Shown here one piece after another: positions 42,068 through 45,802 of a DNA stretch of 64,000 nucleotides (its first letter is position 1; the number at the start of each line of letters is the position of its first letter). The notes beneath the pieces were generated by a model, which searched no databases, was not told where the DNA came from, and saw only the letters and a program-made list of their open reading frames with translations. Origin of the DNA: Thermorudis peleae (GTDB taxonomy: Bacteria > Chloroflexota > Chloroflexia > Thermomicrobiales > Thermomicrobiaceae); contig NZ_JQMP01000003.1 of assembly GCF_000744775.1 (NCBI RefSeq), positions 620,001 to 684,000 on the forward strand. Reading direction: 5' to 3'. The position numbers were made by a program, and so were the translations under genes.

Positions 42068-42127
42068 CCTCCAGCTCCTGTCCTGGCATTGCCGCTGTGC
42101 GTGGCGACGAAGTCGAAGGACGGTAGC

Positions 42128-43324
42128 GTGAAGATCTTGTTTGTTTCTCCCTTCGACTTCACCAATCCTGGTGGTGTCAACGAGCATATTTTGCACCTTG
42201 ATGCGCAATTTCGTCGTCTTGGTCATGAAACACGTATCCTGACACCGCGCGCGTTGGGGGAAGATGAATCTGACGACGGGCATTTCATTAAACTTGGTAC
42301 GGCCGTGCCAATTCCCGCGAATGGTTCAACCGCGCGAATCACACTCTCCCCCTTCGTCTCTGGCAAGGTGAAGGAATTGCTGCAGCGCGAGCAGTTCGAC
42401 ATCATTCATCTGCATGAGCCCCTTGCCCCAGCCTTGCCGTTGCTCGTCCTGCTCCATTCCCAGACGGTCAATGTTGGCACGTTCCACGCGGCCCGTTCGT
42501 ATCACCTCGCCTATCTCTATGCCAAACCATTCCTTGGCTACTTCTTTAACAAGTTGCACGGTCGTATTGCTGTATCCCCCGCTGCGCTCGATTTCGTCAG
42601 TCGTTATTTCCCCGCTCACTATGAGCTCATTCCAAATGGTATTGATGTCACGCGTTTTCATCCCAATGTCCCACCGATTGCGACGTACGATCGCCCCACG
42701 ATTTTGTTTGTCGGGCGGTACAACGAGTCCCGAAAAGGACTGAAATACTTGATTGAGGCGATGGCGCTGGTGCGTCGTGAATTCCCGACATGCCAGCTCG
42801 TTGTCGTTGGCCCTGGAGATCCGGAACGCTATCGGCGGCTTATTGAACGGGTTAATGTTGCTGAGCACGTGCATTTTGTTGGGCCGGTCTCGGCTGATGA
42901 ACGACCGCGATATTACACTGCATGCGACGTCTTCTGCGCGCCAGCGACCGGCCGGGAGAGTTTTGGCATCGTCTTGCTTGAGGCCATGGCGTGCGGGCGG
43001 CCTGTCGTCGCAAGCGACATTCGTGGGTATCGCTTTGTCGTGCGCCATGGCGTTGAGGGCTTGTTGGTTGAGCGGAAGAATCCGGAAGCCCTTGCTCTCG
43101 CGCTTGTGCATCTCTTGGCTGATCCGGCACTGCGGCAACGGCTTGGGCAAGCTGGTCGAGCGCGTGCTGAACAGTTTGCTTGGCCAGTCATTGCCCAGCA
43201 AACACTTGAATACTATGAGCGGGTGCGGGCACGCGTTGCTCCGCGTCTTGTTCGGGCTGCCCAACGCTGGACAGCTGGACTACCGGCCTTTTTGCGTGGC
43301 CCATTTGATGGTGAGCAGTCATGA
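42128..43324 (+). CDS. GT4 glycosyltransferase, PimA-like (phosphatidylinositol mannosyltransferase)
   Basis: A 398-residue GT-B enzyme starting at GTG 42128 with AAGGA seven bases upstream. KILFVSPFDFTNPGGVNEHILHL is the acceptor-side motif seen in PimA-type enzymes. The donor domain shows LFVGRYNESRKGLKYLIEAM, VVGPGDPERYR and the ESFGIVLLEAMACGRPVV E-x7-E motif. The next gene, overlapping by four bases, encodes a phosphatidylinositol-phosphate-synthase-like enzyme, so transfer of mannose to a phosphoinositol lipid at the inner membrane face is the best inference. Other GDP- or UDP-sugar transfer is possible. Confidence 0.88.
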   Translation: MKILFVSPFDFTNPGGVNEHILHLDAQFRRLGHETRILTPRALGEDESDDGHFIKLGTAVPIPANGSTARITLSPFVSGKVKELLQREQFDIIHLHEPLAPALPLLVLLHSQTVNVGTFHAARSYHLAYLYAKPFLGYFFNKLHGRIAVSPAALDFVSRYFPAHYELIPNGIDVTRFHPNVPPIATYDRPTILFVGRYNESRKGLKYLIEAMALVRREFPTCQLVVVGPGDPERYRRLIERVNVAEHVHFVGPVSADERPRYYTACDVFCAPATGRESFGIVLLEAMACGRPVVASDIRGYRFVVRHGVEGLLVERKNPEALALALVHLLADPALRQRLGQAGRARAEQFAWPVIAQQTLEYYERVRARVAPRLVRAAQRWTAGLPAFLRGPFDGEQS

Positions 43325-43923
43325 TTAGTGATCTTCTCGCAGACCGCGTTCGTGCCCACTTGCAACATGTCGGCGCTGTGCTGGCACGAGGGCGCTTGAC
43401 CCCCAATATGCTAACGGTGCTTGGCTTCCTTCTTAACCTTGCTGTTGCGGTAGTCCTTGCTCTCGGTCATCTCCAAGCAGCAGGATTGCTGGCGCTGTTC
43501 GCTGGAGCCTTCGATATGCTTGATGGGGCAGTCGCGCGCGCAACCGGCAAAATAACGCTATTTGGTGGTTTTCTTGATTCGTTTATTGATCGCTATTCTG
43601 AAGCTGTCGTGTTTGGCGGCATCCTGATCTATTTCTTGCGCGTTCCTCATGGCGATCTTCCGATCGTGCTCTGTTATGCGGCTATTGTCGGCTCGTTGAT
43701 GGTCAGCTATGCTCGCGCACGAGCAGAAGCTGCTGGTATTGCGCTGACTGCCGGCATTTTTGCCCGCCCAGAGCGCATCGTCACGCTCGCGCTCTTTTTG
43801 CTGCTCAATCGTCCAATCTGGGCTCTCTGGCTCTTGGCCATTGTTGCCAATATCACTGCGCTGCAGCGAGCCTATCTTGTTTGGCGAGAAGCACATCGCG
43901 CTGGCCCACGTCAGCTTTCGTAA
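43321..43923 (+). CDS. CDP-alcohol phosphatidyltransferase (phosphatidylinositol-phosphate synthase-like)
   Basis: A 200-residue integral membrane enzyme with about six helices. The complete CDP-OH-P motif is present: Asp65-x2-Asp68-Gly-x2-Ala-Arg-x8-Gly-x3-Asp86-x3-Asp90 (DMLDGAVAR ... GGFLDSFIDR). It joins an alcohol phosphate, probably inositol phosphate, to CDP-diacylglycerol or a diol analogue. ATGA overlap with the upstream GT4 gene supports a shared lipid pathway. Thermomicrobium is reported to contain phosphoinositol and mannosyl lipids on long-chain diols (recalled from literature, not checked). Confidence 0.9.
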   Translation: MISDLLADRVRAHLQHVGAVLARGRLTPNMLTVLGFLLNLAVAVVLALGHLQAAGLLALFAGAFDMLDGAVARATGKITLFGGFLDSFIDRYSEAVVFGGILIYFLRVPHGDLPIVLCYAAIVGSLMVSYARARAEAAGIALTAGIFARPERIVTLALFLLLNRPIWALWLLAIVANITALQRAYLVWREAHRAGPRQLS

Positions 43924-43947
43924 CGGGCCTAGCAGTAGGGCGAACTA

Positions 43948-44859
43948 ATGCCTCAGCGGAAGCGCGGGTACCCAAGACAACGTGCCAGCTATGGGCTTCT
44001 ACTGCTGCTCAGCTGGCTGCTTTTTCTCAGTGGCTGTCAACCCTTCTCAAAGCCGGCAGCCATCTCGGCACGACTCACGGTTGCCGTCTTAGATGTTGGG
44101 CAGGGGCTGTCGGTCGCTGCCGTAACCGATGATGGTCATGCCTTGTTGTACGACGCCGGCAATGGCGCTTCGGATGTCCAAAACGTGATTATGCCGTTCC
44201 TGCGCCAGCATGGCGTGCAACGCTTGGACTATCTTGTCGTCAGTCACCCAGACCAAGATCACGTTGGCGGAATACCAGCAGTCTTATCGGCCATACCCGT
44301 TGGGTTGTTCCTTGATCCTGTCTTACCCACGACGAATCATGCGTATCTCCAAGCGCTGCAACTCGTCGCTTCGAAGCACATTCCTGTACAGCGTGCTCGG
44401 CGAGGACAGAGCTTCACTCTTGGGCAAGTCCGCGTTGAGGTACTCTGGCCGCGCGATCCGCTTATGCAGCAAGATGGCGCAGTCAGTGACAATGACAATG
44501 CTGTTGTTATTCGGCTTGTTCTTGACGATATTGCTGTCCTGTTGCCAGCTGACATCGAGGCCCCAGCAGAGTCGGCGTTGGTTGCTGCTGGAGCAGGCGC
44601 ACTCCGCGCGAATGTGCTCGTTGTTCCACATCATGGCAGTCGGACGTCAAGCACAACGCCGTTTTTGGCGGCCGTCGCACCGAAATTCGCCATTATCTCG
44701 GTTGGCGCGCACAATGCGTATGGCCATCCGCACCCCGAAGCGATCGCGCGACTGCGCGCGGCCGGGGCAACGATCTTCCGGACTGACCAGGATGGTACAG
44801 TAACAGTATTGACCGATGGCCAGAGTCTTCAAGTGAAAACCGAGCGGGGTAAACCATGA
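43948..44859 (+). CDS. Membrane-anchored metallo-beta-lactamase-fold protein (ComEC C-terminal-like)
   Basis: A 303-residue lipoprotein: basic N-terminus, hydrophobic segment, lipobox LSGC with Cys30. The MBL domain matches the ComEC/Rec2 nuclease-like domain: VAVLDVGQGLSVAAV, DAGNG, HPDQDH (100-105) as the metal motif, LLPADIEAP, VPHHGS, SVGAHNAYGHPHPEAI. The competence channel domain is absent. It may hydrolyse nucleic acid or another phosphodiester outside the membrane. The stop overlaps the DUF3006 gene start by four bases. Confidence 0.87.
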   Translation: MPQRKRGYPRQRASYGLLLLLSWLLFLSGCQPFSKPAAISARLTVAVLDVGQGLSVAAVTDDGHALLYDAGNGASDVQNVIMPFLRQHGVQRLDYLVVSHPDQDHVGGIPAVLSAIPVGLFLDPVLPTTNHAYLQALQLVASKHIPVQRARRGQSFTLGQVRVEVLWPRDPLMQQDGAVSDNDNAVVIRLVLDDIAVLLPADIEAPAESALVAAGAGALRANVLVVPHHGSRTSSTTPFLAAVAPKFAIISVGAHNAYGHPHPEAIARLRAAGATIFRTDQDGTVTVLTDGQSLQVKTERGKP

Positions 44860-45101
44860 CGATGTTGCGCGCTACCCTTGACCGCTTTGAAATCGATACT
44901 GCCGGGCAGGCTATCGCGGTCCTTGTGTTTGACGATGGCCAGCAGCTGGTTGTCCCACGATCCCTGCTCCCGTCCGGTGTCCGGCATGGTTCAGTGCTGC
45001 AGATTCAGTTCGTGCTCGACCCGGATGTCGAGGCACAACGTCGTGCGGAGATTGCAGCGTTGCAGGAACGGCTCTTTGGTGAAGCGCCCTCCAGTGCATG
45101 A
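44856..45101 (+). CDS. DUF3006 family small protein
   Basis: An 81-residue protein: a small beta domain (LRATLDRFEIDTAGQAIAVLVF, LVVPRSLLPSGVRHGSVLQI) then a charged C-terminal helix (DVEAQRRAEIAALQERLFG). DUF3006 proteins are commonly encoded beside ComEC-like MBL hydrolases, as here with ATGA overlap. A regulatory or accessory role to the hydrolase is inferred from context only. Confidence 0.8.
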   Translation: MTMLRATLDRFEIDTAGQAIAVLVFDDGQQLVVPRSLLPSGVRHGSVLQIQFVLDPDVEAQRRAEIAALQERLFGEAPSSA

Positions 45102-45163
45102 CCTCTCTTGGCGGTAGCATGATCCTTGGGTGGAGATGTTGACGCAAGGCTGAGGCTGAACCG

Positions 45164-45535
45164 ATGATGCCTATCCGACAGGTTGCAGCACTGCTCAGTT
45201 GCGTTGCTGCAATGGTGCTCGCAAGTTGCAGTTGGCCGGTGCATACAAGCAAGCCAACGCCAACAGCAGTGCCAACACCAACGCCGATCCCCGTGCTTGA
45301 AGTCGTGACGCCGACACCTGGGCCTGCCCTTCCGCCCGCTGGCACGCCAACGCCGCGACCTGGCGGTACACCGGCTGCTGGTACGTATGTCGTTCAGCCC
45401 GGGGATTCCTTGTTTACCATTGCTGCCCGGTTTCATGTTAGTGCCCAAGATTTGGCGGCTGCTAATCACCTGACAGATCCCAATACGATCCAGGTTGGTC
45501 AGGTGTTGATCATTCCGACTCCCAGCAGTCGGTGA
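45164..45535 (+). CDS. LysM-domain lipoprotein
   Basis: A 123-residue exported lipoprotein. The signal ends at lipobox LASC with Cys22. Residues about 27-72 are a Pro/Thr-rich linker. Residues 74-118 form one LysM domain (YVVQPGDSLFTIAARFHVSAQ...NTIQVGQVLIIP), which binds peptidoglycan N-acetylglucosamine. There is no catalytic domain. It resembles other PT-linker surface proteins in this window. Confidence 0.92.
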   Translation: MMPIRQVAALLSCVAAMVLASCSWPVHTSKPTPTAVPTPTPIPVLEVVTPTPGPALPPAGTPTPRPGGTPAAGTYVVQPGDSLFTIAARFHVSAQDLAAANHLTDPNTIQVGQVLIIPTPSSR

Positions 45536-45602: not shown

Positions 45603-45631
45603 TTGACGGGCAGATTGGGGCATGATACGCT
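45603..45631 (+). promoter_or_regulatory. Promoter of the structured leader RNA
   Basis: TTGACG (45603-45608), a 17-base spacer and TACGCT (45626-45631), with TG at 45623-45624 forming an extended -10. This is one of the best promoter matches in the window and predicts a start near 45638. Confidence 0.65.
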
Positions 45632-45685
45632 CAGCGTGGTCGGTCTGAATATGACCGAGTAGGGTGAAAGGGGGTGATGCCCGGC

Positions 45686-45733
45686 ATGAGTAGTAGCGAA
45701 CGTCCGGGCGTCACCGCGGGGGTTACAGCTTAG
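45686..45733 (+). CDS. Possible 15-residue leader peptide
   Basis: ATG 45686 to TAG 45731-45733 encodes MSSSERPGVTAGVTA. AAAGGGGGTGATG upstream (45668-45679) matches the anti-Shine-Dalgarno over nearly its whole length, with the core about 7-11 bases from the ATG. The reading frame spans the switch between stems A and B, so ribosome movement would open A and allow or block B. No run of one codon suggests an amino-acid signal. Confidence 0.45.
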   Translation: MSSSERPGVTAGVTA

Positions 45734-45770
45734 TCTGTCACTATCCGCGGTGACGGCCCAAGAGACCGGA

Positions 45771-45802
45771 GGCCGGCTTTGAGAAGCCGGCCTTTGCTTT
45801 TT
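45771..45802 (+). terminator. Strong intrinsic terminator of the leader RNA
   Basis: A perfect 9-bp GC-rich stem (45771-45779 with 45784-45792) with a TGAG loop, followed by TTTGCTTTTT. It lies 70 bases before the DUF1684 start, so it would block or attenuate readthrough into that gene. Confidence 0.88.

Follow-up and report, generated by a model that had tools for sequence, protein, structure and literature searches.

A candidate self-gated, stand-alone mini-mRNA in Thermorudis peleae and other Chloroflexota

The trpL, thrL and pheL leader-peptide attenuators combine a short ORF with a strong Shine-Dalgarno, hairpins that share an arm and a terminator that follows them. In dual-function small RNAs such as SgrS/SgrT, SR1/SR1P and RNAIII, a small transcript with its own promoter and terminator carries a short ORF, and in type I toxin mRNAs such as hok and AapA1 the newborn RNA hides its Shine-Dalgarno and refolds later. 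In Sinorhizobium meliloti, the attenuator RNA rnTrpL and its peptide, peTrpL, are described as acting in trans (PMC7298713). Comparative genomics has also yielded the Downstream-peptide/yfr6 RNAs and the Chloroflexi-1 motif, of which the Downstream-peptide RNA precedes a short conserved ORF and Chloroflexi-1 is listed only for Chloroflexus aggregans (PMC2864571).

Here we describe a locus in a 64,000-nucleotide stretch of the Thermorudis peleae genome (contig NZ_JQMP01000003.1, positions 620,001 to 684,000; hereafter the window, numbered from its first base) that we class as a self-gated, stand-alone mini-mRNA, in part attenuator-like and type I toxin-like, and organized as a dual-function small RNA. 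Our leading reading, which we consider probable, is that the locus is a free-standing gene, present in single copy, for a very short mRNA that controls its own translation through its fold. Comparison of homologues supports a separate transcription unit, both stems and a selected reading frame. The locus resembles the trpL, thrL and pheL attenuators in all four features named above, and its short ORF overlaps alternative stems, with comparison supporting translation; however, it has neither a controlled downstream gene nor a run of codons for a single amino acid, and its terminator shares no bases with the switch. The neighborhoods in relatives contained no conserved co-directional gene downstream that could be under control, and we found no terminator arm pairing alternatively with an anti-terminator. 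A predicted promoter and terminator of its own and a short ORF are shared with the dual-function small RNAs, but compared with SgrS/SgrT, SR1/SR1P and RNAIII the ORF has 12-22 codons, lies inside both switch stems and occurs class-wide, and neither a target nor an Hfq site was seen. Unlike hok and AapA1, the mini-mRNA is a single-copy chromosomal gene without a hydrophobic toxin-like peptide, and its refolding is predicted to open, not lock, the Shine-Dalgarno. As with rnTrpL, a short RNA with a tiny ORF, able to act in trans, would be released; rnTrpL derives from a trp attenuator, whereas the mini-mRNA gene stands free, carries a switch of its own and has no link to trp. Chloroflexi-1 belongs to the same phylum, but the mini-mRNA has no Rfam match.

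Table 1. Features of the mini-mRNA locus (positions in the window).
Feature	Position	Strand	Basis
Sigma-70 type promoter TTGACG-17-TACGCT with extended -10 TG (TTGACG 45603-45608, 17-nt spacer, TG 45623-45624, TACGCT 45626-45631)	45603..45631	+	read from sequence
Predicted transcript, ~165 nt, stand-alone mini-mRNA	45638..45802	+	deduced from predicted promoter and terminator
Conserved 5' segment GACCGAGTAGGG (consensus ACCGnGCAGGG)	45653..45664	+	alignment of relatives
Shine-Dalgarno AAAGGGGGTGAT	45667..45678	+	12-nt match to 16S rRNA tail, one G-U
Stem A 5' arm GGTGATGCCCGG, overlapping Shine-Dalgarno	45673..45684	+	
15-codon frame MSSSERPGVTAGVTA (ATG 45686, TAG 45731-45733)	45686..45733	+	62 homologues
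Shared arm, the stem A 3' arm CCGGGCGTCACC (codons 7-10)	45704..45715	+	
Stem B 5' arm GGGCGTCACCGCGG, within frame	45706..45719	+	
Stem B 3' arm CCGCGGTGACGGCCC, near-copy of Shine-Dalgarno arm	45745..45759	+	
Intrinsic terminator of the mini-mRNA (hairpin 45767-45796, T-tract to 45802)	45767..45802	+	

The original prediction had named the promoter, the Shine-Dalgarno, the 15-codon frame, both stems and the terminator from the letters alone, and their places proved exact to the base. The extended -10 promoter that it had claimed is present (TACGCT with its upstream TG, 45623-45631), as is the terminator with a T-tract ahead of a DUF1684 gene (PF07920), whose likely start is ATG 45872. Stem A comprises 12 pairs in the window, one of them G-U, and had been thought to hide the Shine-Dalgarno; this held for GGTGAT, but AAGG is open in the predicted window fold. 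The ATG, described as exposed in the loop of stem A, is instead partly paired in the predicted fold, within its apical part. A weak promoter-like match lies on the minus strand (45649-45622). Within the order, the 5' segment that precedes the Shine-Dalgarno shows strong conservation, and its GGGU might pair with ACCC after stem B in some members.

Searches of Rfam 15 gave no match at the gathering score in the window; near the element at E<=10, hits stayed at chance level and none exceeded the gathering score (the highest had 15.9 bits where 50 are required), and a search over the element in 18 homologous loci gave no match. These results agree with the initial failure to assign the RNA to a known class. 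In the literature on Thermomicrobium and Chloroflexus small RNAs that we covered, we found no description of the element; many journals and the 224 candidate RNAs listed in NAR in 2017 fall outside this coverage, and the element may already be among the latter. Nor did we find a described equivalent of its layout: the translation switch is compact and self-contained, and it has no gene downstream to control. The idea of a T-box, raised by the string ACCGCGG, was dropped as there is neither a specifier domain nor an Rfam match. Judged by a tRNA-like domain, an RF00023 match and one gene per genome, tmRNA was likewise rejected, separate canonical tmRNA genes being present in six genomes tested, that of the window included.

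The Shine-Dalgarno, which has the form AAAGGAGGTGAT in most relatives, can pair with every one of the 12 bases in the 16S rRNA tail. There are three copies of AAAGGRGGTGAT, the complement of this 12-nt end, in the 2.93-Mb genome: two are the complements of the two 16S rRNA 3' ends and the third is the mini-mRNA. Other Chloroflexota genomes hold a few more full complements of the 16S tail. Spacing between Shine-Dalgarno and ATG is 11-12 nt inside families f1 and f2 and 8 nt outside them. The notion that AAAGGGGG of the RNA tracks an altered 16S tail in the window's genus was rejected, because the 16S ends in ATCACCTCCTTT.

A DNA search with the core of the element (45653-45723) recovered it in 13 of 60 relatives, and the pattern GGTGATGCC-N2-8-ATGAGTAG matched a single site per genome in 23 of the 158 class genomes, all of them in families f1 and f2; the reversed control pattern had no sites in the same 158 genomes. 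Covariance models (R1, R2 and R3) were built from homologues and searched across the phylum. With R1, the element was found in 135 of 158 class genomes at E<=0.1, and R3, run on an even sample of 400, located it in 53 of 54 class genomes and in 25 genomes of other classes. It is nearly always present in one copy per genome; two diverged copies were seen in three genomes (L109/L110 in G113, L114/L115 in G131, and G122). We read 39 divergent members from the class and from families f20 and f65, together with further members from other classes. Their layout runs from a promoter (in most) through AAAGGAGGTGATGCCC, ATG AGT AGT or similar, GGGCATCACC in frame, a stop and GGTGATGCCC, which is the form of the stem B 3' arm in many relatives, to a terminator. 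One model match (L136) was left out as a false positive in G-rich coding sequence. A pattern scan of genome contigs covered the f1/f2 form only (3-8 nt between GCC and ATG) and therefore says little on other phyla. Being near-universal and single-copy in the class and reaching other classes, the gene probably does something basic; a gene so small escapes ordinary annotation.

Both stems fold better than dinucleotide shuffles of their sequences (z = -5.3 for stem A alone and -6.7 for stem B alone), with 0 of 200 shuffles matching either fold, and the entire leader folds at z = -5.0 against shuffles. Nine core pairs of the twelve in stem A were formed in 100% of 207 cells among 23 order-level sequences, and core pairs were formed in 95.4% of 414 cells among 46 phylum-wide sequences. 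In these 46 sequences, whose alignment was fitted to stem A, two-sided changes occurred at three pairs and 0 of 500 shuffles matched the covariation score. On the arm that faces the near-invariant Shine-Dalgarno, almost all changes retain a standard or G-U pair. Stem B was found in 62 of 62 homologues, always ending at the same motif. When arms were exchanged between genera or between families, pairing fell far below that of a member's own arms (genera, 0 of 20,000 permutations; families, ten draws with 0 of 5,000 permutations each), in tests that correct incompletely for the relatedness of the sequences. At position 2 of codon 11, stem B contains U-A, A-U, G-C and C-G combinations, and the encoded amino acid is free (V, E, G or A). 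Because both stems need the same arm, A and B are mutually exclusive in every member. The two hairpins with a common arm that had been predicted are thus present, and covariation in relatives, proposed earlier as their test, favors the element. Together, these alignments indicate that both stems are under selection.

Micro-ORF length ranges from 12 to 21 codons in the 62 homologues and reaches 22 in family f85, hence 12-22 across the phylum. The ATG lies 15, 18, 21 or 24 nt from the shared arm in 61 of 62 by automatic arm call; the exception (L131), and L132, in which the arm was also miscalled, measured 21 and 18 nt by eye. Counted by family, there were at least nine independent length changes, every one of them a multiple of three. 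All 23 members in f1/f2, with sequences such as MSSHGTTGITEEVAG and MSSSSTLGVAMEAVS, have a 15-codon frame, save one that a 3-nt deletion has shortened to 14 codons. A Blosum-type coding test on 18 distinct ORFs scored frame 0 best on the plus strand by a small margin, and minus-strand frame 0 scored above it; given this weak substitution signal, the coding case rests on the in-frame length changes, which indicate that the 15-codon frame is under selection. Beyond the residues that the RNA arm imposes (Gly-Ile/Val-Thr/Ala), the peptide sequence is poorly conserved, so translation is better supported than any given peptide. The 62 micro-ORFs stop at TAG (46), TAA (12) or TGA (4). TAG ended 106 of 340 neighboring ORFs of at least 150 aa, an excess in the micro-ORFs that is a hint only, since the sequences are related and some neighboring ORFs are perhaps spurious. 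In family f85 (L160, L163, L164) and in L165, peptides of 17-22 codons contain cysteines (for example MDYPRCEACKPSTIRSTSEAVS and MDYSSCRCTWASPEVSR), unlike the Thermomicrobia forms.

Folding order and the assignment of on and off states were predicted by equilibrium folding, not kinetics. Prefix transcripts up to the shared arm are predicted to fold into stem A in 62 of 62 homologues, and upon addition of the 3' arm stem B becomes the main predicted form in 41, among them the window's own RNA (B at about 0.7). These folds point to silencing of the newborn RNA by A and its release by B. In the other 21, which include Thermomicrobium-type members of genus g6, A is still favored once the 3' arm has been made, so B as the on-state is not uniform. 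Predicted opening of the Shine-Dalgarno upon addition of the 3' arm is modest on average (0.27 to 0.40). These predictions suggest that A and B are poised near balance.

In the mechanism that we propose, hairpin A would form first in the newborn transcript, pairing the Shine-Dalgarno with codons 8-10 (Gly-Ile/Val-Thr/Ala). The 3' arm, made after the stop codon, would allow hairpin B to take the shared arm from A, exposing the 12-base complement of the 16S tail and leaving the finished RNA open to translation of its 12-22 codon peptide. A ribosome translating the frame would open the two stems, and once it has left, either A or B would form again. Three arms would suffice for this design: the Shine-Dalgarno arm, the anti-Shine-Dalgarno codons and a near-copy of the Shine-Dalgarno arm. 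The transcript is predicted to stop at its own terminator without controlling any gene beyond it, which leaves the peptide, the RNA or ribosome binding itself as the output. We infer that this product works in trans, perhaps in translation. The element is a definite target for testing in cultured Thermomicrobium, Sphaerobacter or Chloroflexus strains.

It is possible, although on the whole unlikely, that the locus instead encodes a trans-acting regulatory RNA in which translation merely resets the fold and the peptide itself does nothing; ribosome loading would then free or mask an arm that pairs with putative target mRNAs or the 16S tail. The wide variation in peptide sequence beside two stems and a frame that are kept, the absence of a downstream target gene and a loop start, ATGAGTAGT, that shows almost no nucleotide variation in Thermomicrobia would all fit such an RNA, but the shared arm always lies within the frame and the frame itself appears to be selected. 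More tentatively still, and with low probability, the mini-mRNA may be a housekeeping Chloroflexota RNA that monitors free ribosomes or translation and is reset by ribosome passage through a 15-codon test frame, with an output in trans. If so, the complement of the 16S tail would be toggled by an internal near-copy, and the output would fall on translation or ribosome rescue. The 16S-tail complement, the smpB and bL25 neighbors and the TAG-rich stops offer a lead, and only a lead, towards such a link.

The promoter and terminator recur beyond the window. A TTGAC-type promoter stands at the equivalent place in nearly all 62 homologues, with at least 9 of 12 consensus bases in 48 (3% of shuffles, on average, do as well); it is weak or unseen in some members, and L134 has none that is convincing. 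A terminator-like hairpin with a T-rich tail follows in 60 of 62. The layout in the window, and a DUF1684 gene next after the RNA in genera g1, g3, g4 and g6, would suit a cis-acting attenuator or riboswitch of that gene, as originally proposed, in which A/B refolding or ribosome position sets read-through. Yet the RNA is intact in sister family f2, where the DUF1684 gene lies on a different contig, and in three g2 genomes (named records: Sphaerobacter) in which DUF1684 was not found. The next gene downstream in relatives is often convergent, most often that for ribosomal protein bL25, and neighbors differ from clade to clade: in all seven genomes of family f22 that were read (L140, L141, L155-L159), the gene immediately after the mini-mRNA is smpB. 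Moreover, the terminator (45767-45802) has no base in common with stem A or B, which leaves A/B pairing without the classical means of switching it. Therefore, we consider control of a downstream gene very improbable and read the adjacency of DUF1684, from gene order in relatives, as a local accident beside an independent gene with its own promoter and terminator in most members; the suggestion of a new cis-regulator or small RNA holds in its second part and, with these changing neighbors, fails in its first for DUF1684. Local co-option as a cis-regulator may have occurred in some genera. In L140, the one locus of this family checked for it, tmRNA lies behind smpB, and the smpB/tmRNA neighborhood in f22 is a possible tie to ribosome rescue.

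An early hairpin that sequesters the Shine-Dalgarno and a later competitor recall hok/AapA-type mRNAs, and the locus might be a type I toxin-antitoxin mRNA encoding a small toxic peptide and silenced by a metastable hairpin. This is very improbable: the peptides are short (12-22 aa) and polar, with no hydrophobic membrane stretch, the gene is fixed across the class at one copy per genome, and viral contigs gave no match to one strict pattern. That the arms, which are G+C-rich, reflect no RNA but an inverted repeat acting as DNA, or a palindrome that arose by chance beside a strong Shine-Dalgarno, is scarcely credible in view of G-U pairs throughout, in-frame length changes, a conserved promoter and terminator, and covariation.

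Upstream of the mini-mRNA, a LysM lipoprotein gene is a commoner neighbor than DUF1684, being present in the window, in g2, g4, g5 and f2 and at no fewer than 17 divergent loci; it is absent beside the RNA in g3 and g6. Across f1/f2, gene order is conserved at 42089-45535, starting with glycosyltransferase, CDP-alcohol phosphatidyltransferase and metallo-beta-lactamase-fold lipoprotein genes and ending with DUF3006 and then the LysM lipoprotein.
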